From: a virus
Strand: one strand, 5' to 3'
Length of the DNA: 33,537 nt
Virus record (IMG/VR): IMGVR_UViG_3300017713_000035
Coordinates: 1 to 33,537 of that record
Shown here: positions 3,413-19,418 of the stretch, piece by piece
Layout: each line of letters opens with the position of its first letter
Position numbering within the stretch: position 1 is the stretch's first letter
Notes under the pieces: generated by a model
Told to the model about the DNA's origin: nothing
The model's input: only the letters and a program-made list of their open reading frames with translations
The model's database searches: none
Position numbers and translations under genes: made by a program

Positions 3413-3434
3413 ATACGCTATGGGTGTAGCGTAT
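3413..3434 (+). promoter_or_regulatory. Leader hairpin 1
   Basis: ATACGCTA pairs perfectly with TAGCGTAT across the six-base loop TGGGTG. It lies in the 5' leader of the gene at 3499, upstream of the long-range inverted arm. It could stabilise the 5' end of the mRNA. Confidence 0.6.
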
Positions 3435-3437
3435 GAA

Positions 3438-3452
3438 TTAGAGAGCTCCTTA
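3438..3452 (+). repeat. Left arm of inverted repeat around the outer-membrane protein gene
   Basis: TTAGAGAGCTC plus CTTA is complementary to TAAG plus GAGCTCTCTAA at 3916-3931. That gives 15 base pairs with one unpaired C at 3920. The arms enclose the coding region 3499-3909. Confidence 0.75.
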
Positions 3453-3460
3453 AGGTAAAA

Positions 3461-3474
3461 GGACAATAGTGTCC
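3461..3474 (+). promoter_or_regulatory. Leader hairpin 2
   Basis: GGACA pairs with TGTCC across the four-base loop ATAG. It lies between the inverted arm and the AAAGGAG ribosome binding site of the gene at 3499. The ribosome binding site itself is left unpaired. Confidence 0.5.
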
Positions 3475-3498
3475 AATTAAAATAAAGGAGAATAAATT

Positions 3499-3909
3499 AT
3501 GAAAAAAATCATTTTAACAATTGCTTTATGTGTTGCAACGATAGTAGCAACTCAAGCACAGACAAAAGGTGACTGGTACGTAGGTACTGGCGATATAAGT
3601 AACGTAGCATGGACAGATTGGGCAATTAGCCCGACTGTAGGTTACGGAGTAATGGATAACCTAATGGTAGGTTTATCTGTTTCACAAGCAGATTCAACAG
3701 TTGATATGTCATATGACTTACATGCTAGATATTTTTATAAAGGATATTTTGCATATGCATCAACTAGTGGATTAGATACTGAGACGTTGAGTCTTGGAGT
3801 AGGAAGGATGTTTACAGTACATAAGAGTGTGTACATTGATCCTAGAATCGTTTATAATACAGAAGAGAAGACTACAAACCTTAGTTTAGGTTTCGGACTT
3901 AGATTCTAA
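3499..3909 (+). CDS. Phage-encoded outer-membrane beta-barrel protein
   Basis: Encodes 136 residues. A signal peptide is clear: MKK, a hydrophobic core (about residues 4-16) and a TQAQ end, with likely cleavage after Ala20. The AQ ending is typical of flavobacterial secreted proteins. The mature part shows alternating polar and hydrophobic strands (WAISPTVGYGVMDNLMVGLS, YDLHARYFYKGYFAYAS), aromatic girdles and a C-terminal Phe (LSLGFGLRF), the usual signal for Bam-mediated barrel insertion. About 115 mature residues would make a small eight-strand barrel of the OmpA/OmpW/OmpX type. It may change the host surface, for example superinfection exclusion or masking of a receptor, but this is inferred. 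The gene has a structured leader, a strong AAAGGAG site, and inverted arms on both sides. Confidence 0.8.
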   Translation: MKKIILTIALCVATIVATQAQTKGDWYVGTGDISNVAWTDWAISPTVGYGVMDNLMVGLSVSQADSTVDMSYDLHARYFYKGYFAYASTSGLDTETLSLGVGRMFTVHKSVYIDPRIVYNTEEKTTNLSLGFGLRF

Positions 3910-3915
3910 TAAAAA

Positions 3916-3931
3916 TAAGCGAGCTCTCTAA
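3916..3931 (+). repeat. Right arm of inverted repeat around the outer-membrane protein gene
   Basis: TAAG, a bulged C, then GAGCTCTCTAA. It pairs with 3438-3452 and begins 6 bases after the stop codon at 3909. A short hairpin, GGCA/TGCC with loop ATTA, follows at 3943-3954. Confidence 0.75.
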
Positions 3932-3982
3932 ACACCCCAACCGGCAATTATGCCACAAAATTAATAAAAAAGAGGAATACAA

Positions 3983-4207
3983 ATGGATTCAGTAATTAAG
4001 TACGTAACAGGATTTTTCGGTGGACTATTATCAATCATGATGGCAGTTTTACCAGTATCAATTCTATGGACTGTCTTAACAGGCGGTACTGTATTTGGAA
4101 TCGATGTTGTAGCTAATCTTTCAGCTCTTGTAAGTGCACTAGGTAATGGTGGATTTGTAGGATTGATAGTATTAGTTATTATTACATCATTCTTTGTGAA
4201 GAAATAA
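3983..4207 (+). CDS. Small hydrophobic membrane protein
   Basis: Encodes 74 residues that are almost entirely hydrophobic. One segment spans about residues 8-33 (GFFGGLLSIMMAVLPVSILW), a second weaker one about 36-52, and a third about 55-71 (GGFVGLIVLVIITSFF). It ends in KK. It follows the barrel gene after 73 bases and precedes an intrinsic terminator, so the two are probably cotranscribed. Its size and hydrophobicity would suit a holin or another membrane-modifying phage protein. No family was recognised. AAGAGG before the ATG serves as a ribosome binding site. Confidence 0.65.
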   Translation: MDSVIKYVTGFFGGLLSIMMAVLPVSILWTVLTGGTVFGIDVVANLSALVSALGNGGFVGLIVLVIITSFFVKK

Positions 4208-4227
4208 GTTATCTTATATACATATGG

Positions 4228-4256
4228 AAAAGGCGCTTTACGGCGTCTTTTCTTTT
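4228..4256 (+). terminator. Intrinsic terminator
   Basis: AAAAGGCGC pairs with GCGTCTTTT over the loop TTTACG (nine pairs, one G-U) and is followed by CTTTT. It sits 20 bases after the stop at 4207 and just before a new promoter block, so it closes the 3' end of the barrel/membrane protein unit. Confidence 0.8.
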
Positions 4257-4277
4257 GTCAAACATTTCTGGTAAAAA

Positions 4278-4324
4278 ATTAGGTTATTTGAAAAAGTTTT
4301 CTTATCTTTATATATAATTAAAAG
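4278..4324 (+). promoter_or_regulatory. Early-type promoter block P2
   Basis: ATTAGGTTATTTGAAAAAG then TTTTCTTATCTTTATATATA. It follows a terminator and precedes the ATG at 4333 by a few bases. The flank TTTCTGGTAAAAA upstream is shared with the block at 1952. Confidence 0.7.
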
Positions 4325-4332
4325 AAAGAAAT

Positions 4333-4716
4333 ATGCATAAGTTATATCTAGTAAGTTTTATAATTGAAGAAAGAAGATGTTTTAAGATAGGTATCACATC
4401 TAACTTTGATGTAACAAAACGATTCCAAAAACATATTAACAATGGCAATATTTTAGCATTTAAGATATATAAGAGTTCCTACTTTGAAAGTTATGATGAT
4501 GCATATGAAGCGGAACAATTGTTAATGAATAATATAGTAAATGAGTTTGGAGGATATGATTATAACGGAGAAGTTAAATTTCATAATTTTTGGGCTAAAA
4601 ATAAGTTAGGAGGTATAACAGAAATTAGAAAATATAATCAAGAAGAAGTTAATTTTGCTTGGAAGTTTATAAATGAAAATGGAGAAAAAAGTTATAAAAA
4701 GCTTCAAAAAGATTAG
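4333..4716 (+). CDS. GIY-YIG-like nuclease, T5orf172/Mug113 type
   Basis: Encodes 127 residues. The N-terminal half has YLVSF (residues 5-9), then CFKIGITSNFDVTKRFQKH (16-34). This is the degenerate GIY-YIG pattern of the T5orf172/Mug113 families, in which Y-x-V/I, K-I-G-x-T/S and a following Arg carry the fold. A further Glu is present in EAEQLL, matching the usual position of the metal-binding Glu. In phages such standalone domains are often homing-type or host-DNA-cutting nucleases. No separate DNA-binding domain is attached. It is the first gene of a new transcription unit. The stop codon lies inside promoter block P3. Confidence 0.7.
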   Translation: MHKLYLVSFIIEERRCFKIGITSNFDVTKRFQKHINNGNILAFKIYKSSYFESYDDAYEAEQLLMNNIVNEFGGYDYNGEVKFHNFWAKNKLGGITEIRKYNQEEVNFAWKFINENGEKSYKKLQKD

Positions 4717-4756
4717 GTTATTTGAAATATATTCCTTATCTTTATTATATAAATAA
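4712..4756 (+). promoter_or_regulatory. Early-type promoter block P3
   Basis: ATTAGGTTATTTGAAATAT then ATTCCTTATCTTTATTATAT and an A-rich tail. It is nearly identical to the block at 10120. It overlaps the TAG of the preceding gene and precedes the ATG at 4769. Confidence 0.7.
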
Positions 4757-4768
4757 AAAATAAAAAAT

Positions 4769-5275
4769 ATGCCAAAAGTTAAAAAAGCCCCAAAAATTGA
4801 ATACGGAATTGAAATTGTTAAACCATGGTCAAAGGAGATGTATGATCATAATGATGTAGTTTCAGAGGAAATGAAAATGAATATTTTAGATGCCTGGAAA
4901 AAGGCCTTATCTAGATTAAATGCTAATTTAACTAAGATTGACCATGAAGGGTTGCAATGGGATGAAGAGGCATTTAATAATGAGAGTAATGAAATATCAA
5001 ATCCAATCCTAGTTAAACTTCAAAGAGGTATTATGTATACCGGATATGGAGATGGATTTACCATTCAAGATGTAAATGATGAATTCGAAAGAGAATTAGA
5101 AAATATGCCTAATTATCAACTCCATGAATCATATAGTTATTTAGCATTCGAAGGCCTGTTACCAAGAACGACATTTATGTTAGTAGGATTTGAATGGGAG
5201 AAGTTTGATTATCATATCATTGGTTCACAAGAATGTACTTCACCAGTATTATCACTAAGTTTTAATAATAATTAA
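4769..5275 (+). CDS. Hypothetical protein
   Basis: Encodes 168 residues: a basic N-terminal tail (MPKVKKAPK), then an acidic mixed alpha/beta body with several Trp (KPWSKEMY, DAWKKAL, GLQWDEEAF, GFEWEKFDY). There is no signal peptide or membrane segment. No family was recognised. It has its own early-type promoter, which suggests early host-takeover or regulatory use, but that is inference from position only. Confidence 0.7.
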   Translation: MPKVKKAPKIEYGIEIVKPWSKEMYDHNDVVSEEMKMNILDAWKKALSRLNANLTKIDHEGLQWDEEAFNNESNEISNPILVKLQRGIMYTGYGDGFTIQDVNDEFERELENMPNYQLHESYSYLAFEGLLPRTTFMLVGFEWEKFDYHIIGSQECTSPVLSLSFNNN

Positions 5276-5286
5276 AAATAAAAAAA

Positions 5287-5457
5287 ATGCAGAAAATAAT
5301 TGAAAAGTTTACAGTAGAGTTAAAAGGAGATTTAATTACCGTTTATAAAGATGGAGAATTGGTAACCGGTAAAGCAACAAGAGGTGCCACATCTGATATG
5401 GATTTTAAAGATATGTGTGAGCAAGTTCAGCGACATGTAGAGAAGACGAAAAAATAA
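5287..5457 (+). CDS. Hypothetical small protein
   Basis: Encodes 56 residues beginning MQKIIEKFTVELKGDLITVY and ending VQRHVEKTKK. Short beta strands (FTVELKGDLITVYKDGELVT) are followed by a helix. It is below the usual length cut-off but fits exactly between its neighbours: 11 bases after the preceding stop, with its own stop one base before the ATG at 5459. Codon use looks like the surrounding genes. Function is unknown. Confidence 0.6.
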   Translation: MQKIIEKFTVELKGDLITVYKDGELVTGKATRGATSDMDFKDMCEQVQRHVEKTKK

Positions 5458-5458
5458 T

Positions 5459-5785
5459 ATGGGAAGAAAAAAGAAATTACAGATTGGCGACATTGTTAAA
5501 GCATATTTCCTAGGAACATCTGATACATATGATGTAATTAAAGTTATTGATAAACAAACTTACAAATTACGATGTGTAAAATCAGGAACAATATTACCTA
5601 GTGTAAAATGGAAGAAGGATATGGATAAGAAATCGGTATGGTATATTGATGCTTATATAAGTCATAACAATGTTGCTAAGTCAACGGAAGATCAGAATAC
5701 CAGTAAGAACACTACGGAAAAAGATGAGCTAGATATAGCCATTAAAAAACAAGAGAAATTTATAGATGGAAAACTAAACAAGTAA
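5459..5785 (+). CDS. Small SH3-like barrel protein with charged tail
   Basis: Encodes 108 residues. After a basic start (MGRKKKLQ), the segment IGDIVKAYFLGTSDTYDVIK and the following strands up to VKWKKD resemble an SH3-like or KOW-type small barrel. The C-terminal third (about 70-108) is polar, low complexity and probably disordered or helical. No catalytic motif is visible. The gene starts one base after the previous stop, so it is likely translated in tandem with it. Confidence 0.6.
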   Translation: MGRKKKLQIGDIVKAYFLGTSDTYDVIKVIDKQTYKLRCVKSGTILPSVKWKKDMDKKSVWYIDAYISHNNVAKSTEDQNTSKNTTEKDELDIAIKKQEKFIDGKLNK

Positions 5786-5794
5786 TATTTATTG
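5784..5794 (+). promoter_or_regulatory. Weak late-type motif
   Basis: AATATTTATTG overlaps the stop of the preceding gene, 30 bases before the ATG at 5824. It matches the ATATTTATT core but lacks the A-rich end, so this is a weak candidate. Confidence 0.3.
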
Positions 5795-5823
5795 TTTTAC
5801 CAATCTAAATTAGGAGTTATAAT

Positions 5824-6015
5824 ATGGGACATTATGAAGATTTATGGTATGATATTACCGAGTCAATAAATAACAAAGATCTTAAGAAAGAGTTCGATGC
5901 ACAGTTAAAGAAAATGAACAGCCAAGATAAACATAGATATAAAGATGTTAGAGATAAATGGACTTATGCACATGAAAAAGTTACAAAACTTTATGATAAA
6001 AAAGCTAAGAAATAA
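5824..6015 (+). CDS. Hypothetical helical basic protein
   Basis: Encodes 63 residues, all predicted helical, rich in Lys and Asp (DITESINNKDLKKEFDAQLK, HEKVTKLYDKKAKK). TAGGAG lies before the ATG as a ribosome binding site. There is no membrane segment and no recognised family. Such small charged phage proteins often bind host factors, but no evidence is visible here. Confidence 0.55.
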   Translation: MGHYEDLWYDITESINNKDLKKEFDAQLKKMNSQDKHRYKDVRDKWTYAHEKVTKLYDKKAKK

Positions 6016-6058
6016 TTTGCCTAATTGAAATATTTTTCTTATCTTTATATATGATAAA
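6013..6058 (+). promoter_or_regulatory. Early-type promoter block P4
   Basis: The block has AATTGAAATATTTTTCTTAT then CTTTATATATGATAAAA. The ATTAGG portion is degenerate (TTTGCCT). It lies about 50 bases before the ATG at 6107, with a leader hairpin between. Confidence 0.6.
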
Positions 6059-6066
6059 AAGGTTAG

Positions 6067-6088
6067 AGGTCAAGCCTGAAATTGACCT
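6067..6088 (+). promoter_or_regulatory. Leader hairpin before the winged-helix-like gene
   Basis: AGGTCAA pairs perfectly with TTGACCT over the eight-base loop GCCTGAAA. It lies in the 5' leader, 18 bases before the ATG at 6107. It could be a protein-binding operator or mRNA stabiliser; no poly-T tract follows, so it is not a terminator. Confidence 0.55.
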
Positions 6089-6106
6089 GAGATTAAAAAT
6101 TAATAA

Positions 6107-6394
6107 ATGACAAAAAATAATTCAGTTCACGAAATGGTTGATGTCTTAAAAAAGTTAGGACCGATGACCGAAACAGAAGTATTCAAAGCAGCCTTTGGAT
6201 ATGATCGAAACAATTCAATCCAATCAAACAAAAAATATGCCGACATGCTTCGTAGAGGTATGAGAAAAGGTCTTATCAGTCGAGTTGAGACAGACGGATT
6301 AGGTAGAGCTAGGTTTGCATATTATGCTCCTAGAGTAGTTAAAGTATCTTGTTCATCAGAATTAGATAATAGTTGGCACAACGAATCAATATAA
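6107..6394 (+). CDS. Possible winged-helix DNA-binding protein
   Basis: Encodes 95 residues. The order helix (SVHEMVDVLKKLGPMTETEV), helix with basic residues (KYADMLRRGMRKGLISRVET) and a short beta wing (GLGRARFAYYAP) resembles a compact winged-helix or helix-turn-helix domain. The LGPMTETEVFKAAFG segment would be the first helix pair and KKYADMLRRGMRKGL the recognition region. It may regulate phage or host transcription. The hairpin in its own leader would suit autoregulation. This is a fold-level inference. Confidence 0.5.
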   Translation: MTKNNSVHEMVDVLKKLGPMTETEVFKAAFGYDRNNSIQSNKKYADMLRRGMRKGLISRVETDGLGRARFAYYAPRVVKVSCSSELDNSWHNESI

Positions 6395-6410
6395 AAAAAG
6401 TTAACAAAAA

Positions 6411-6460
6411 ATTAGGATCTTTGAAATAAAGTCCTTATATTATAGTATATTAATTAAAAA
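6411..6460 (+). promoter_or_regulatory. Early-type promoter block P5
   Basis: ATTAGGATCTTTGAAATAA then AGTCCTTATATTATAGTATA. It is a slightly diverged member of the family, 10 bases before the ATG at 6470. Confidence 0.6.
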
Positions 6461-6469
6461 ATAAAAATT

Positions 6470-6685
6470 ATGGCTTATTATGTAGCAAAGGTTAAAATTG
6501 CAACCGATACACCGAAAGGAGTTAAATGGCAATCAGAATCGTATTTAGTAGATGCACTTACTGTAACTCATGCAGAAGCATTAGTGAATGAAGACTTCAA
6601 AGATGATGGAGTTGAATTCGAAGTTAAATCTGTTTCCAAATCACAGATATGTAAAGTAATTGAACCATCAACTAAAAATTCGTAG
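6470..6685 (+). CDS. DUF4494-like protein
   Basis: Encodes 71 residues. The opening YYVAKVKIATDT, the SYLVDALTVTHAEALV stretch (about residues 24-39) and the following acidic segment match the pattern of the DUF4494 family, found mostly in Bacteroidota and their phages. Its function is not established. The gene has its own promoter and is followed after two bases by the gene at 6688. The family call is from remembered sequence features. Confidence 0.6.
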   Translation: MAYYVAKVKIATDTPKGVKWQSESYLVDALTVTHAEALVNEDFKDDGVEFEVKSVSKSQICKVIEPSTKNS

Positions 6686-6687
6686 AT

Positions 6688-7089
6688 ATGAGATATAATA
6701 TAAATGATAAAGTTGTTTTTGAAAACGAAGGAGTAAATCAGGTAGGAGTTATTACAAATGTAAGAAAGGCTGATAACAAAACCTATTATGACCTCAGAGC
6801 CGAAGGAGGGTCTGGATTTGTTTTAGTTCCTGTAGATAAAACAAAAAATAAGTATTCAAAGTCATATGCTATGATTAATTCTAAACTTTCAGAAGTATTT
6901 AATCAGTCAGTAGCAGATGGAGATATTGAACCAACAAATCTTTATGCAAAAGAAGGATTTGGTCATACTAGAGGTAATTTTACAAAAGGTACTCCTCTAT
7001 ATTTTGATGGTGAAAAGGATGGTAAGATGGGACAAATGGAAAAAAGAAATGACTTTATATTTCCAACGCAAGGTCCAAGATCATTTTAA
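6688..7089 (+). CDS. SH3-like domain protein
   Basis: Encodes 133 residues. The first 55 residues (NINDKVVFENEGVNQVGVIT, then KTYYDLRAEGGSGFVLVPVD) look like an SH3-like barrel resembling those in DUF-type Bacteroidota phage proteins. The C-terminal part is polar with several Gly and Phe (GFGHTRGNFTKGTPLYFDGE). There is no catalytic motif and function is unknown. It overlaps no neighbour, and the next ATG follows one base after its stop. Confidence 0.6.
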   Translation: MRYNINDKVVFENEGVNQVGVITNVRKADNKTYYDLRAEGGSGFVLVPVDKTKNKYSKSYAMINSKLSEVFNQSVADGDIEPTNLYAKEGFGHTRGNFTKGTPLYFDGEKDGKMGQMEKRNDFIFPTQGPRSF

Positions 7090-7090
7090 T

Positions 7091-7390
7091 ATGAGAGAAG
7101 AGATTAAAAAAGAACGACTTAAAAAGAGAGTTCTTAAAGATTTTCCTAATGCTTATGTAGATCATGATGGTAATGGTTATAAGATAATGGTTGGCAATAA
7201 ATATATTGCTGAAGAATATTATTTACCAAATACGCATGATCTAGATAAAGCATGGGAATATGCTGCATTAGCATGTAAGACAACTCAAAATTTTAATAGA
7301 TCACATCCGGATAGAATGGACCTTTCTGATAAAGAGGGTAAATACCATAGAATCAGTAAACGTAAACGGAGAGGCAGAAATGTTAAATAA
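7091..7390 (+). CDS. Hypothetical basic protein
   Basis: Encodes 99 residues from the ATG at 7091 (MREEIKKERLKKRVLKDF). The frame is open further upstream, but that part only shadows the preceding gene. The N-terminus is a highly basic helix and the middle has short strands (GYKIMVGNKYIAEEYYLP). The C-terminus is very basic (HRISKRKRRGRNVK), which could bind nucleic acid. Its end overlaps the start of the methyltransferase gene by 11 bases. Confidence 0.65.
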   Translation: MREEIKKERLKKRVLKDFPNAYVDHDGNGYKIMVGNKYIAEEYYLPNTHDLDKAWEYAALACKTTQNFNRSHPDRMDLSDKEGKYHRISKRKRRGRNVK

Positions 7391-8129
7391 AATTAAAAAA
7401 TTGTTTATGAAAAAAGACGAAAAAGAAGTGGAGATCAATCCACCAGAAACTCAAGAACAGCTTGACAAAGAAAATGAGCAAGCTATTCTTAATGCAGAAG
7501 ACGATGCTGCAGAATTAGCAGAAATACAACCAACTGCAGAAGAGTTAGCCGAGATGAAAAATCAAGGATATTTAGAAGATTCGGCAGCAGTAGTTGGGTA
7601 TGCAAGTCGTAAAGATCAATATGAAGCATATTCGGATATAGTCGGAACTATACCAGAAGGAGAGAGTATATTAGATTTCGGTTGTGGTCGTGGAGATTTT
7701 TATGCATGGCATGAAACTACATTCGGTCCAGGTAATGTAGATTATTTAGGAGTTGATGCAAATCAAACATTAATAGATATCGGCAATAGTTTATATGATA
7801 ATGTCAATTTGGTTTGTGATGACTGGACTAATTTAAAAGTGAAAGATAAAAAAGATTGGTGTGTTAATATACAATCGAATAATTTAAGATATGATGCAAT
7901 GACAGATGTATCTAATATTGAGTATGTCAAATCAACAATTGATAAGATGTATGAAATGTGTAATCAAGGATTAATAATATCACTTTCTTCAGATAAATAT
8001 GAAGTAGAAAATCAATTAACATATGATGCTGGTGAATTAGCATCATGGGCAATAACAAAATTTGATATCGTAGCAGTTGATCATACGACTAATACTAATC
8101 AATTTCTAATAGTAATTTATAAAAACTAA
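7380..8129 (+). CDS. SAM-dependent class I methyltransferase
   Basis: Encodes 249 residues. The Rossmann SAM-binding motif I is ILDFGCGRGDF (residues 97-107), and an acidic end of strand 2 is seen in YLGVDAN (about 122-128). A later acidic site lies around CDDWTN (146-151). An N-terminal extension of about 75 residues is unusually acidic and helical (KDEKEVEINPPETQ...AEELAEM) and may tether the enzyme to a partner. The substrate is not identifiable; no DPPY-type adenine-methylase motif is present, so a small-molecule, RNA or protein target is as likely as DNA. The start overlaps the previous gene. Confidence 0.75.
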   Translation: MLNKIKKLFMKKDEKEVEINPPETQEQLDKENEQAILNAEDDAAELAEIQPTAEELAEMKNQGYLEDSAAVVGYASRKDQYEAYSDIVGTIPEGESILDFGCGRGDFYAWHETTFGPGNVDYLGVDANQTLIDIGNSLYDNVNLVCDDWTNLKVKDKKDWCVNIQSNNLRYDAMTDVSNIEYVKSTIDKMYEMCNQGLIISLSSDKYEVENQLTYDAGELASWAITKFDIVAVDHTTNTNQFLIVIYKN

Positions 8130-8133
8130 AAAT

Positions 8134-8397
8134 ATGGGATACGTAAACAATACAGCAGCTTATGATCAAAAGAAAGTTCGTAAGTATGGAAAATTATATG
8201 GTTCAATTGACTTCGAAGTTAATGATTCTATAACACAACATTATTTTGAAAACAATGAAAAGCCAGTAGTAGGAAAACTGCATATTGGAAACAGAACTTT
8301 TGATGTAACATATCAAGAATTAGATATGATTCAAAAAACGTTAGGTACTGCAAAAGATGTAGTTAACAGAAAGTATAAAATGGGAATGATGCGATAA
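8134..8397 (+). CDS. Hypothetical protein
   Basis: Encodes 87 residues with a mixed alpha/beta pattern (GSIDFEVNDSITQHYF, KPVVGKLHIGNRTFDVTYQE) and a helical C-terminus. No membrane segment, signal or recognised motif was seen. The TAATG overlap with the next ATG at 8397 shows translational coupling. Confidence 0.6.
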   Translation: MGYVNNTAAYDQKKVRKYGKLYGSIDFEVNDSITQHYFENNEKPVVGKLHIGNRTFDVTYQELDMIQKTLGTAKDVVNRKYKMGMMR

Positions 8398-8636
8398 TGG
8401 GATTCCATAAACGATATATTAATGACGAGCAGATAATTGGCATCTACAGAAATGGTGGATGTCAAGCCGTTATTGACTGGTATCAAAAAGGAAGTGATGC
8501 TATAATCTTATCAGGAGAATTATCAGAAACCGTTCATACATTAATGAATATATTAGAACATAATCATGAACGAGGTTGGAATCGTATTTCTGAAGTTATA
8601 GCAGCTGCTTCTATAGAAAAAGGTTTCCAAAACTAA
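8397..8636 (+). CDS. Hypothetical protein
   Basis: Encodes 79 residues. The first part (HKRYINDEQIIGIYRNGGCQ) is mixed and the second is helical (ELSETVHTLMNILEHNHERG). No motif is recognised. It overlaps the preceding stop and ends at the next late-type motif, so it is the last gene of that small operon. Confidence 0.6.
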   Translation: MGFHKRYINDEQIIGIYRNGGCQAVIDWYQKGSDAIILSGELSETVHTLMNILEHNHERGWNRISEVIAAASIEKGFQN

Positions 8637-8649
8637 TATTTATATAAAA
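8636..8649 (+). promoter_or_regulatory. Late-type motif ATATTTATATAAAA
   Basis: One base differs from the ATATTTATATTAAA form. It starts on the last base of the preceding stop codon, 8 bases before the ATG at 8658, the same spacing as at 16787. Confidence 0.5.
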
Positions 8650-8657
8650 GGGAATAT

Positions 8658-8852
8658 ATGTCAAAATTTGGAATGTATACTAAAGGAACCAATGAAAACA
8701 ATCAGCATATAAGTTTAGTTGAAGTTTCTACAAAACAAGAAGCGGAAGCATATTTTGCAGGACGTAAACAATTATCACTACTTCAATTCCATAACATGTT
8801 TGTTGTACGTGAAATAAAATCACCAGAATCAAAAAATCTATTATTAGGATAA
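8658..8852 (+). CDS. Hypothetical small protein
   Basis: Encodes 64 residues (MSKFGMYTKGTNENNQHISL...). It has two or three short strands and one helix (KQEAEAYFAGRKQLSLLQF). No family was recognised. The next gene starts two bases after its stop. Confidence 0.55.
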   Translation: MSKFGMYTKGTNENNQHISLVEVSTKQEAEAYFAGRKQLSLLQFHNMFVVREIKSPESKNLLLG

Positions 8853-8854
8853 TA

Positions 8855-9262
8855 ATGAAATTAGATGAATTAGAAATATTTGAAGATGATTTTGATTTAT
8901 TTGTAGCACTAGATGATATAGATAAAGTAGAATTTTTGTCAGATGCAATTGAATATGGAACAGAGGTTGCGGTAGTTAAGCACGTAACTAAGTTGGCAGA
9001 CAAATATATGCCAAAGACACCATTAGTTGCATCTGAAGATTTTACTGTGGGTCCATATAGATTATGTGTAACAACATTTAAAGATTCTGAAATTCATTTA
9101 AATTCTAATAGTCTAAAAGCAATTAGATATTTTGTTAAAAAGATTATGAATGATGGAGTTATATTATGGCCATCAGATAAAAAGAAAAGCGAATTTGATA
9201 TCTATCGTTTTTTTAAAGCATATAAAATTGTAGGTAAGGTTGGCCCTTTCTGCGAAAACTAG
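8855..9262 (+). CDS. Hypothetical protein
   Basis: Encodes 135 residues. The acidic N-terminus (LDELEIFEDDFDLFVALDDI) is followed by an alpha/beta body with basic and aromatic residues (KSEFDIYRFFKAYKIVGKVG). No signal or membrane segment is present and no family was recognised. It precedes the Hsp20 leader. Confidence 0.65.
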   Translation: MKLDELEIFEDDFDLFVALDDIDKVEFLSDAIEYGTEVAVVKHVTKLADKYMPKTPLVASEDFTVGPYRLCVTTFKDSEIHLNSNSLKAIRYFVKKIMNDGVILWPSDKKKSEFDIYRFFKAYKIVGKVGPFCEN

Positions 9263-9274
9263 ATATTTATTAAT
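9263..9274 (+). promoter_or_regulatory. Late-type motif before hsp20
   Basis: ATATTTATTAAT lies directly after the stop of the preceding gene and just before the inverted arm at 9276. If used as a promoter, the hsp20 mRNA would begin near that arm, leaving a leader of about 70 bases. Confidence 0.5.
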
Positions 9275-9275
9275 G

Positions 9276-9300
9276 TAATTGGACTTCACTGCGGGTTGGA
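9276..9300 (+). repeat. Left arm of inverted repeat around hsp20
   Basis: TAATTG, five unpaired bases, then CACTGCGGGTTGGA. It pairs with TCCAGCCCGCAGTG plus CAATTA at 9771-9792: 14 pairs including one G-U, then 6 more pairs across a small internal loop. Confidence 0.75.
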
Positions 9301-9351
9301 CAGTTACAAAACATTTTTTATTAACGTTAAATTATTTAAGGAGATTTAATT

Positions 9352-9765
9352 ATGACAAAATTAACACCATATGGCACATCGCCATTCGACATCCTATTTA
9401 AGGATTTTTTCAAAACAGATGTAGACTATCAGTTTGCAGATACAACTAAACTTAACCATCCAGTAGATATATATGAAGCCGAAGAAGGGCTCAATATTGA
9501 TATTGCATGTGTAGGTTTAACTAAAGAAGATATTGATCTTAATATTGAGGGAGATATACTTCGAGTAGAATATAAAAAAGACGCTGGCCATAACGGGACA
9601 GAATACATTCAAAGAAATATTGCTAAACGAGCATTTAACTTTGGATGGAGAATTAGTAGACGATTTGACTTAGGTCAATTAGAAGCTAAATTAGAAAATG
9701 GTTTGTTACATCTTCATGCGCCACTTGCAGATGAAGCAAAACCTAAATCAGTTACAATTAAGTAA
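9352..9765 (+). CDS. hsp20: Small heat-shock protein Hsp20 / alpha-crystallin family
   Basis: Encodes 137 residues. After a short Phe-rich N-terminal arm (TSPFDILFKDFFKT), the alpha-crystallin domain runs from about residue 36 (HPVDIYEAEEGLNIDIACVG) to LENGLLHLHAPL near 115-126. The end has VTIK, an IxI-type C-terminal motif. Hsp20 is a holdase that keeps unfolded proteins soluble, and T4-like cyanophages and other myoviruses often carry it, perhaps to help virion assembly. The ribosome binding site AAGGAG sits at 9338-9343, with TTAAAT and ATTTAA around it able to form a weak AU hairpin. The inverted arms flank the gene. Confidence 0.92.
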   Translation: MTKLTPYGTSPFDILFKDFFKTDVDYQFADTTKLNHPVDIYEAEEGLNIDIACVGLTKEDIDLNIEGDILRVEYKKDAGHNGTEYIQRNIAKRAFNFGWRISRRFDLGQLEAKLENGLLHLHAPLADEAKPKSVTIK

Positions 9766-9770
9766 ATAGT

Positions 9771-9792
9771 TCCAGCCCGCAGTGTTCAATTA
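9771..9792 (+). repeat. Right arm of inverted repeat around hsp20
   Basis: TCCAGCCCGCAGTG followed by TT and CAATTA. It begins 5 bases after the hsp20 stop and includes the GTG that starts the next open frame. Confidence 0.75.
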
Positions 9793-9973
9793 TAATTTTA
9801 TAGAATATAACAATAAGAAGTATTTAGTTAGACGTATTATTAAAGTATCTGACTTAAAATCTAACTTTGATCAACAGGTCTTAAAACAATGGACGCGATC
9901 AGATACCCTCTTAAAGAAAGATGGATTATTTTACTGTTGTGAAACTATACAAGAAGCTGTTATAGTGCCATAA
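9782..9973 (+). CDS. Hypothetical small protein with GTG start inside an inverted arm
   Basis: Encodes 63 residues from GTG at 9782 (MFNYNFIEYNNKKYLVRRII). A TAG lies in frame at 9767-9769, so no longer form exists, and no other start codon occurs near the N-terminus. It has an N-terminal beta-like segment and a Cys pair (FYCCETIQEAV). No Shine-Dalgarno sequence is visible, and the GTG would be buried if the arms at 9276-9300 and 9771-9792 pair. Translation could depend on coupling to hsp20 or on opening of that stem. Confidence 0.5.
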   Translation: MFNYNFIEYNNKKYLVRRIIKVSDLKSNFDQQVLKQWTRSDTLLKKDGLFYCCETIQEAVIVP

Positions 9974-11510: not shown

Positions 11511-12503
11511 ATGAAAGAAAATGTAAGATTGGGTTATGCATGTGTTAACATGACATTAACTAACCGACCTAAAAAATTAGGAGGCAGAGTAACAACATCA
11601 AGGACTGCTAGAAAAGTGACTTGGAAGAAAGGATCTGAAGATCCGAAAGATTGGGATTTACATTTATTAGGCGAGAGGACATTATTAAATGCAAACGACT
11701 TGTTACATTATCTACAATGGAATAATGAACATAACATTAAATTATTTAGATTAGGTTCTGAATTATTTCCATGGCATGATCAATACGAGTTACATCAGTT
11801 ACCTCAGTTTAATGAAATATCAAAAAAATTATTAGAATGTGGTAACTATGCACGTGAACATGGAATTCGTATAACAACTCACCCAGGTCCATTTAATGTT
11901 TTAGGTTCTCCTAAATTAGATGTTGTAGAGCGTACAATTGTAAGTCTTGAAAGACATTCTGAGACATTTGATATTATGGGTTTTGAGCCTTCCTTTGAAA
12001 ATAAAATTAATATTCATGTTGGTGGTTCATATGGTGGCGACTTTGTAGGCACATCAAAAAGATGGATTGCAGGTTGGCATAGATTATCTGATAACTGTAA
12101 GAAACGAATAGTATTAGAAAATGATGACAAGCCTAGTATGTGGTCAACAAAAATGTTATATCATTATTTTCATAAAGAAATAGGTATTCCAATTACATTT
12201 GATTACCACCACCATTCATTTCATCCAGATGAGATGTCAGAAGAAGCAGCATTAAAATTAGCCGCAACTACATGGCCTGATGATGTTAGACAGTGTACAC
12301 ATTATTCAGAAAGTAGAGCAAGAGAATTTCAAGATCCTAAAATTAGAGCACAAGCACATTCTGATTATATTAGAGATGAAATTAATACTTACGGACTTGA
12401 TATAGATATTGTAATAGAAGCTAAGGCAAAAGAGTTGGCACTTTTAGAATATCGTAATATTTATGCGTATAATAATAAAAATAAAAAAGAAGTTTTACTA
12501 TGA
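11511..12503 (+). CDS. uvsE: UV-damage endonuclease (UVDE/UvsE family)
   Basis: Encodes 330 residues. Hallmarks of the UVDE TIM barrel are present: RLGYACVNMTL at the start, LFRLGSELFPW, GIRITTHPGPF, INIHVGGSYGGD, RIVLENDDKPS and TFDYHHHSFHP with the metal-binding His cluster, then QCTHYSESR. The family nicks DNA 5' to UV photoproducts and some abasic sites, starting an alternative excision repair path. The length is normal for the family. Together with the ligase upstream, the phage could start and finish repair of its own DNA, which would suit sunlit water. Overlaps the next ATG by 4 bases. Confidence 0.92.
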   Translation: MKENVRLGYACVNMTLTNRPKKLGGRVTTSRTARKVTWKKGSEDPKDWDLHLLGERTLLNANDLLHYLQWNNEHNIKLFRLGSELFPWHDQYELHQLPQFNEISKKLLECGNYAREHGIRITTHPGPFNVLGSPKLDVVERTIVSLERHSETFDIMGFEPSFENKINIHVGGSYGGDFVGTSKRWIAGWHRLSDNCKKRIVLENDDKPSMWSTKMLYHYFHKEIGIPITFDYHHHSFHPDEMSEEAALKLAATTWPDDVRQCTHYSESRAREFQDPKIRAQAHSDYIRDEINTYGLDIDIVIEAKAKELALLEYRNIYAYNNKNKKEVLL

Positions 12504-18941: not shown

Positions 18942-19418
18942 ATGAAAACACAAGGATTTATAAAGTTATTACGTAAGGTAATTAGAGAAGAAGTTCGTAA
19001 CGTTATTAAAGAAGAACTTAAACCAATGTTAAATGAAGAAAATGTTCAACAACAAAACATTAGCCTTCATGAAGCAATGAATACTCCAGAAGTATCTAAT
19101 CAAAAAATTACAAAAAAGCAGTTCACAAAAAATCCATTATTAAATGATTTATTAAATGAGACGGCAGCAATGCCTGCATCACAAGAATTAGTAGATTATT
19201 CGTCAATGAATTTTAAATCAGAAATGGCAGAATCATTTGGTATGGAACGACAAGCTCCAATGAGATCAGAGAGGCCTTTAGCAACAAAAGGAATTAATGG
19301 CGAAGGTATTGATATGTCAAATGAAAATGTTGCTTCAACAGTAAATGCTATGACAAAAGATTATTCTGGAGTAATGAAAGCAATGAATAAATTAGATAAA
19401 CAAAAAGGTAAAAAATAG
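18942..19418 (+). CDS. Protein with amphipathic N-terminus and LxE sites, possible head-targeted protein
   Basis: Encodes 158 residues. The N-terminus MKTQGFIKLLRKVIREEVRN is a basic amphipathic helix, and three (I/L)xE sites follow: LNE (Glu32), LHE (Glu44) and LNE (Glu73). The layout resembles the capsid-targeting peptide plus cleavage site of T4 internal proteins. A similar N-terminus occurs at 2951. The remaining part is Met-rich and polar. It sits inside the baseplate operon between the gp5-like block and gp25, so a baseplate role is equally possible. No family was recognised. Confidence 0.6.
   Translation: MKTQGFIKLLRKVIREEVRNVIKEELKPMLNEENVQQQNISLHEAMNTPEVSNQKITKKQFTKNPLLNDLLNETAAMPASQELVDYSSMNFKSEMAESFGMERQAPMRSERPLATKGINGEGIDMSNENVASTVNAMTKDYSGVMKAMNKLDKQKGKK

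Follow-up and report, generated by a model that had tools for sequence, protein, structure and literature searches.

The leader-trailer stems of 16S and 23S pre-rRNA pair the flanks of a gene over hundreds of bases and are processed by RNase III. Among bacterial-type mRNAs, pairing between the 5′ and 3′ untranslated regions (UTRs) of one molecule has been described for a few individual messages (hok, aapA, icaR, hbs and RNAIII), and 3′-UTR elements reportedly show little conservation among related species. A review passage describing Braun et al. 2017 reports that a 14-nt 5′-3′ UTR pairing protects the Bacillus subtilis hbs mRNA from RNase Y, and that this pairing, in a single bacterial gene, is unconserved in close relatives (PMC7821165). 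The hok and aapA/IsoA type I toxin mRNAs combine 5′-3′ long-distance pairing with a competing metastable 5′ hairpin, and their Shine-Dalgarno (SD) sequence is sequestered (PMC6733600). In Staphylococcus aureus icaR, a C-rich 3′-UTR motif pairs with the G-rich 5′-UTR of the same mRNA, covering the SD, repressing expression and creating an RNase III substrate (PMC3868564). Here we describe two pairs of complementary arms in a virus-record fragment of 33,537 nt (IMG/VR record IMGVR_UViG_3300017713_000035; hereafter the window), one pair flanking an Hsp20 gene and the other flanking an unrelated gene for an outer-membrane beta-barrel-like protein (the barrel gene). What is new is an arrangement conserved over many phage lineages, with complete sequence turnover and around two unrelated genes. 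An earlier note on this DNA knew of no named system with such a layout; that is too broad in view of the single bacterial mRNAs above, and it holds for these phages and genes, for which our partial coverage of the literature yielded no description of such pairing; neither the window nor the arms at ten related loci gave an Rfam match above gathering score.

The arms lie where the earlier note had placed them, around open reading frames (ORFs) whose sizes, 136 aa for the barrel and 137 aa for Hsp20, agree with the 136-137 codons it gave. To judge them against chance, we paired the 140 nt before each gene with the 90 nt after it and kept the highest-scoring ungapped helix; randomly drawn cross-pairs of flanks served as the control. 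Ungapped helices and cross-pair controls were adopted because duplex energies become noisy once internal loops cost nothing, as shown by one unrelated gene of the window at −37.9; among the 43 window genes, the duplex z scores against shuffles were −5.7 for Hsp20 and −4.4 for the barrel. The gene sample comprised the window and 3.1 Mb of related metagenomic sequence, including several near-complete relatives, 20-kb pieces that span the greater part of seven large records from related phages, as well as 77 kb of another such record; genes were called as simple ORFs, giving 3,378 distinct genes in 937 families. Arms above the 2% control threshold were found at 44 of 61 Hsp20 genes (p=7e-61) and 27 of 68 barrel genes (p=4e-28), p values that are nominal in that kin sequences are counted as independent. 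Out of 235 testable families with at least three members each, only these two were enriched. The best p among the remaining families in the 235 one-gene tests was ~2e-4, and in the two-gene test one 3-member family reached p=8e-6, from near-identical sequences. The paired arms around the Hsp20 and barrel genes are real and far beyond chance. The scan of genome and relatives that the earlier note had set beforehand thus gave a divided answer: such arms are not general, and they are strongly enriched in exactly the two genes it had named.

Searches with more distant Hsp20 proteins added further loci, and a core score of at least 13 was reached in 71/72 of those outside cyanophages versus 1/43 in cyanophages. 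Cross-pairs within this distant set have a 95% point of 14 and a 99% point of 21, values inflated because related loci have arms in common; for unrelated genes the 99% point is 13. No arms were found in 11 named phages with Hsp20 (cyanophages, pelagiphages, Methylophilales and Vibrio phages) or in the MKKMILTLAL clade, a part of the barrel family, and a genome scan for cellular Hsp20 returned four weak homologues only.

Between lineages the letters of the arms change completely (CACTGCGGGTTGG, AACGTACTAAGTGGGC, GTGAAACCTTAGG, GCAGGGGACC, GCTAGGGCAC, AGCAGGTCGGTC and others), and the complement is kept behind the gene. A DNA inverted repeat should show both G-U-type and A-C-type mismatches, whereas a helix in sense RNA tolerates G-U only. 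Across 86 distinct Hsp20 arm pairs we counted 40 G-U pairs (23 G-U and 17 U-G) versus a single A-C, the two kinds being scored alike (p=4e-11, nominal as the sequences are related). Because G-U is tolerated and A-C nearly absent, the helix is best placed in the sense RNA rather than in a DNA inverted repeat. Self-pairing of 36 Hsp20 arm segments summed to −1124.6 kcal/mol versus −607.7 ± 34.9 when permuted, with none of 20,000 permutations near; since the segments were picked for self-pairing, the cross-controlled helix tests are the fairer measure. Barrel self duplexes gave −1006 versus −750 ± 22 permuted. In an alignable group, two-sided changes occupied 25 cells of the inner Hsp20 helix (8 in shuffles); pairing fell from 90% to 35% when the partner was shifted by a single column. 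Together, these comparisons show a predicted helix that acts in the sense-strand RNA and has been preserved by compensatory substitutions in a large group of uncultured tailed phages. By the same comparisons it is specific to Hsp20 and the barrel, enclosing one cistron, or two where a DUF2061 gene follows Hsp20. The idea of a shared mRNA-level architecture for selected phage genes has therefore held up, both in the 2/235 testable families and in the strand-asymmetric wobbles.

The Hsp20 left arm takes part in a second predicted fold. A local 5′ hairpin around it covaries as well, with 12 two-sided-change cells versus 5.3 in shuffles and a mean fold z of −1.5 over 36 relatives. GGG occurs in 74/86 Hsp20 left arms, and the local hairpin usually exposes it in the loop. 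In Hsp20 group A, covariation thus shows a second option for the left arm, a local hairpin that must open before the long-range helix forms; as the arm is shared by both, two exclusive folds are possible. In predicted full mRNAs, the long-range helix had a probability of 0.97 for Hsp20 and 0.89 for the barrel. Predicted accessibility of the SD and start was the same with and without the right arm for Hsp20 (0.534 versus 0.520, p=0.34, 36 mRNAs) and, if anything, more open with it for the barrel (0.594 versus 0.563, p=0.07, 21 mRNAs), and sequestration of the SD by pairing was dropped as a candidate on this account.

The geometry of the arms varies. The 472 and 470 nt that the earlier note gave as core distances are correct for the window, as is a start some 46-51 bases past the left arm (50-51 nt from the left cores in both genes); of its right arm 5-6 bases past the stop, the Hsp20 half is right (the core begins 5 nt past it) and the barrel half is not (11 nt). 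A fixed cassette geometry does not survive the comparison, since lengths and spacings vary in relatives, where Hsp20 cores lie ~466-519 nt apart (5-95%) in the one-gene form and 690-722 nt apart in the two-gene form, so that the likeness of 470 to 472 is a coincidence. Left arms lie ~40-90 nt upstream of the start, and the Hsp20 right arm mostly 4-20 nt past the stop. A local terminator at that right arm was rare (3/95, with none in 92/95). In some relatives, a DUF2061 gene (Pfam E=1e-22) stands after Hsp20 inside the loop, with the right arm moved behind it. The median length of the Hsp20 helices is 22 bp, with at least 20 bp in 74/95 loci and a small asymmetric bulge in many cases; barrel cores are ~8-14 bp. 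Within 45 nt upstream of the left arm, 82/95 distinct Hsp20 loci have a late-type motif (TATTTAT or TATGTATA) versus 92/3237 control stretches (3%), a ratio inflated because the motif list was drawn from the same sequences. TATTTAT-type motifs also stand upstream of structural genes, e.g. at window positions 18942 and 31218. The transcript probably starts ~5-10 nt 3′ of TATTTAT, i.e. at the Hsp20 left arm.

The reading we favour, at a probability of roughly 0.42, is that the arms form a cis-acting long-range RNA clamp that would protect or isolate the looped cistron or cistrons. During transcription, the Hsp20 5′ hairpin would form first; the right arm, once transcribed, would pair with the hairpin loop, usually GGG-containing, and displace the hairpin. 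The resulting clamp would bury the 5′ end and set a barrier of ~22 bp directly past the stop, slowing 5′-end-dependent as well as 3′-exonucleolytic decay. With its 5′ end buried and 3′ exonucleases blocked by the helix, the looped cistron would persist longer than those around it late in infection, and its ribosome site would remain accessible. Still more tentatively, this may be a lineage-wide phage device, a two-state 5′ hairpin and clamp that makes chosen cistrons looped, long-lived or selectively recycled late in infection and is kept purely by complementarity. In its 5′-3′ UTR pairing, in arms away from the SD and in the protection that we propose, the clamp resembles hbs as described in that review (PMC7821165), and it differs in being kept by compensatory change over many lineages and two unrelated genes. 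Several points weigh against the clamp. Transcript ends are inferred; the barrel helices are shorter and do not in every case have their left arm at the 5′ end; the clamp gives no reason for choosing Hsp20 and the barrel over more abundant virion genes; ribosomes terminating at the stop would disrupt, time and again, a right arm that lies 5-20 nt beyond it; and a helix of at least 20 bp could attract RNase III instead of protecting.

On that last point, the arms may be an RNA-processing stem whose cleavage by RNase III would free the cistron and destroy or separate the downstream message, a possible if unlikely account. The length and asymmetric bulges of the Hsp20 helices would suit it, right arms frequently run into or adjoin the start of the following gene, and icaR offers a 5′-3′ pairing that is an RNase III substrate (PMC3868564). 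However, a left cut would achieve little because the left arm sits at the inferred 5′ end, and at 8-14 bp the barrel cores would make short substrates for this enzyme. The pre-rRNA stems share the paired gene flanks, but there it is rRNA that is enclosed, and RNase III processing defines them. Somewhat harder to credit is a translational closed loop, in which the stop would be brought near the start for ribosome recycling, or the next start masked until the helix opens. The right arm does usually lie 4-20 nt past the stop, also behind DUF2061, and in group A the next start codon is inside or adjacent to the arm, but in other groups the next gene begins another 20-60 nt downstream, often preceded by promoter-like sequence, and the nearness of arm to stop may be simple compactness.

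A fold-back of the hok/aapA kind, with the full-length mRNA inert for translation until 3′ processing strips the right arm, is improbable. The topology is the same, a 5′ hairpin competing with 5′-3′ long-distance pairing (PMC6733600), and its competing hairpin was found at Hsp20 as the covarying hairpin around the left arm. Nevertheless, hok-, aapA- and icaR-type repression is disfavoured because the ribosome site is predicted to stay open, with the SD unpaired by the arm. No hok/aapA-type toxin was found at these loci, whose products are Hsp20 and an outer-membrane-protein-like barrel; antisense RNA was not sought. Pairing of a 3′-UTR with the SD as in icaR was not found either: the left arms lie well before the start with the SD outside the helix, and the G-rich partner in the phages is an upstream hairpin loop. 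A long-range terminator, with the helix and a U-rich tract halting polymerase, is more doubtful again. The T fraction rises to 0.54-0.66 at +4 to +9 past the Hsp20 right core, but this richness is partly the outer stem itself, the copies in the window lack a clean U tract, transcription of the barrel evidently carries on to a later terminator and a loop of ~480 nt would be slow to close. Next to no weight falls on a DNA-level element, i.e. inverted repeats of a mobile cassette or recombination sites. One gene does stand between two arms, and both genes recur in many genomes, yet the arms differ by lineage and stay complementary, and the right arm stays behind an added gene. Mobile inverted repeats are rejected on the asymmetry of 40 G-U to 1 A-C under symmetric scoring, in line with the earlier note's view that the arms are not copies of one mobile element. 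With so many lineages, nature provides a sizeable alignment on which a long-range mRNA fold can be tested, and effects on lifetime and on translation can be separated by experiment.

Table. Features of the barrel and Hsp20 units in the window.
Feature	Position	Strand	Basis or remark
Barrel 5′ hairpin, ATACGCTA-TGGGTG-TAGCGTAT	3413..3434	+	sequence
Barrel left arm core, TTAGAGAGCTC	3438..3448	+	pairs with GAGCTCTCTAA; 472 nt between cores
Outer-membrane beta-barrel-like gene, 136 aa	3499..3909	+	Pfam PF13505 OMP_b-brl E=6e-5, short of the curated threshold
Barrel right arm core, GAGCTCTCTAA	3921..3931	+	followed by CACCCC 3933-3938
74-aa membrane-like gene, second cistron of barrel unit, outside predicted clamp	3983..4207	+	ORF; terminator in relatives
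Terminator-like hairpin and T-rich tract, end of barrel/74-aa unit	4228..4257	+	sequence; relatives' terminators
Late-type promoter motif TATTTAT	9264..9270	+	sequence
Hsp20 left arm	9274..9300	+	outer stem 9274-9284, bulge 9285-9287, inner core to 9300; minimum-free-energy pairing, covariation
Local 5′ hairpin GTAATTG...CAGTTAC	9275..9307	+	9275-9281 pairs with 9301-9307; excludes long-range helix
Hsp20 left core, CACTGCGGGTTGGA	9287-9300	+	pairs with right core TCCAGCCCGCAGTG 9771-9784; 470 nt between
Hsp20 Shine-Dalgarno AAGGAG	9338..9343	+	outside helix
Hsp20 / alpha-crystallin gene, 137 aa	9352..9765	+	Pfam PF00011 E=2e-9; phrog_432 E=3e-15
Hsp20 right arm	9771..9794	+	minimum-free-energy partner of 9274-9300

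With its outer stem, the window Hsp20 helix comprises 24 pairs and a 3-nt left bulge in the predicted mRNA fold. GTG at 9782-9784, inside the right arm, is the listed start of the next ORF (63 aa, 9782-9973); several relatives place the ATG of the following gene within or next to the Hsp20 right arm. About 600 nt upstream of one phage Hsp20 gene there is an Rfam match to permuted tmRNA (positions 738-904 of sequence L336; 62.9 bits, gathering 47).

The barrel protein has a signal-peptide-like N-terminus. Its gene is followed by a terminator directly in 2/50 relatives, versus 44/54 in which the terminator comes after the 74-aa gene, so the predicted barrel clamp encloses the leading cistron in a unit of two genes and does not bring the two ends of the message together; the 'closed-end' message of the earlier note is doubtful for this gene, whose unit runs on to the terminator. 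A generic terminator scan did not list the window copy at 4228-4257. The hairpin loop GGGTG at 3422-3426, in the 5′ hairpin of the barrel, is complementary to CACCC at 3933-3937, just 3′ of the right arm, and a relative without the GGGTG loop (L118) is likewise without CACCC. Mini-hairpins whose stems vary (GGACAATAGTGTCC, GGCAATTATGCC, GCCAATAGTGGC) around the invariant centre CAATNNTG precede the ribosome sites of both the barrel and the 74-aa gene, at 3461-3474 and 3943-3954 in the window and in relatives L080-L118. There are 4 in the window versus 0.9 in shuffles, and they are possibly a protein-binding or translation element. Barrel relatives L085-L105 have long 5′ leaders with repeated aggttattnaataaagg motifs upstream of the left arm.

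The 33.5-kb fragment encodes T4-like baseplate genes, the closest named relatives of which are those of Microcystis phage Mel-JY01 (50% protein identity) and Flavobacterium phage immuto (40%); a similarity search of the region's DNA with named phages gave no match. Promoters and closest named baseplates together point to Bacteroidota as the likely host. The window also carries a homologue of the UV-damage endonuclease UvdE at 11511-12503 (Pfam E=2e-52).

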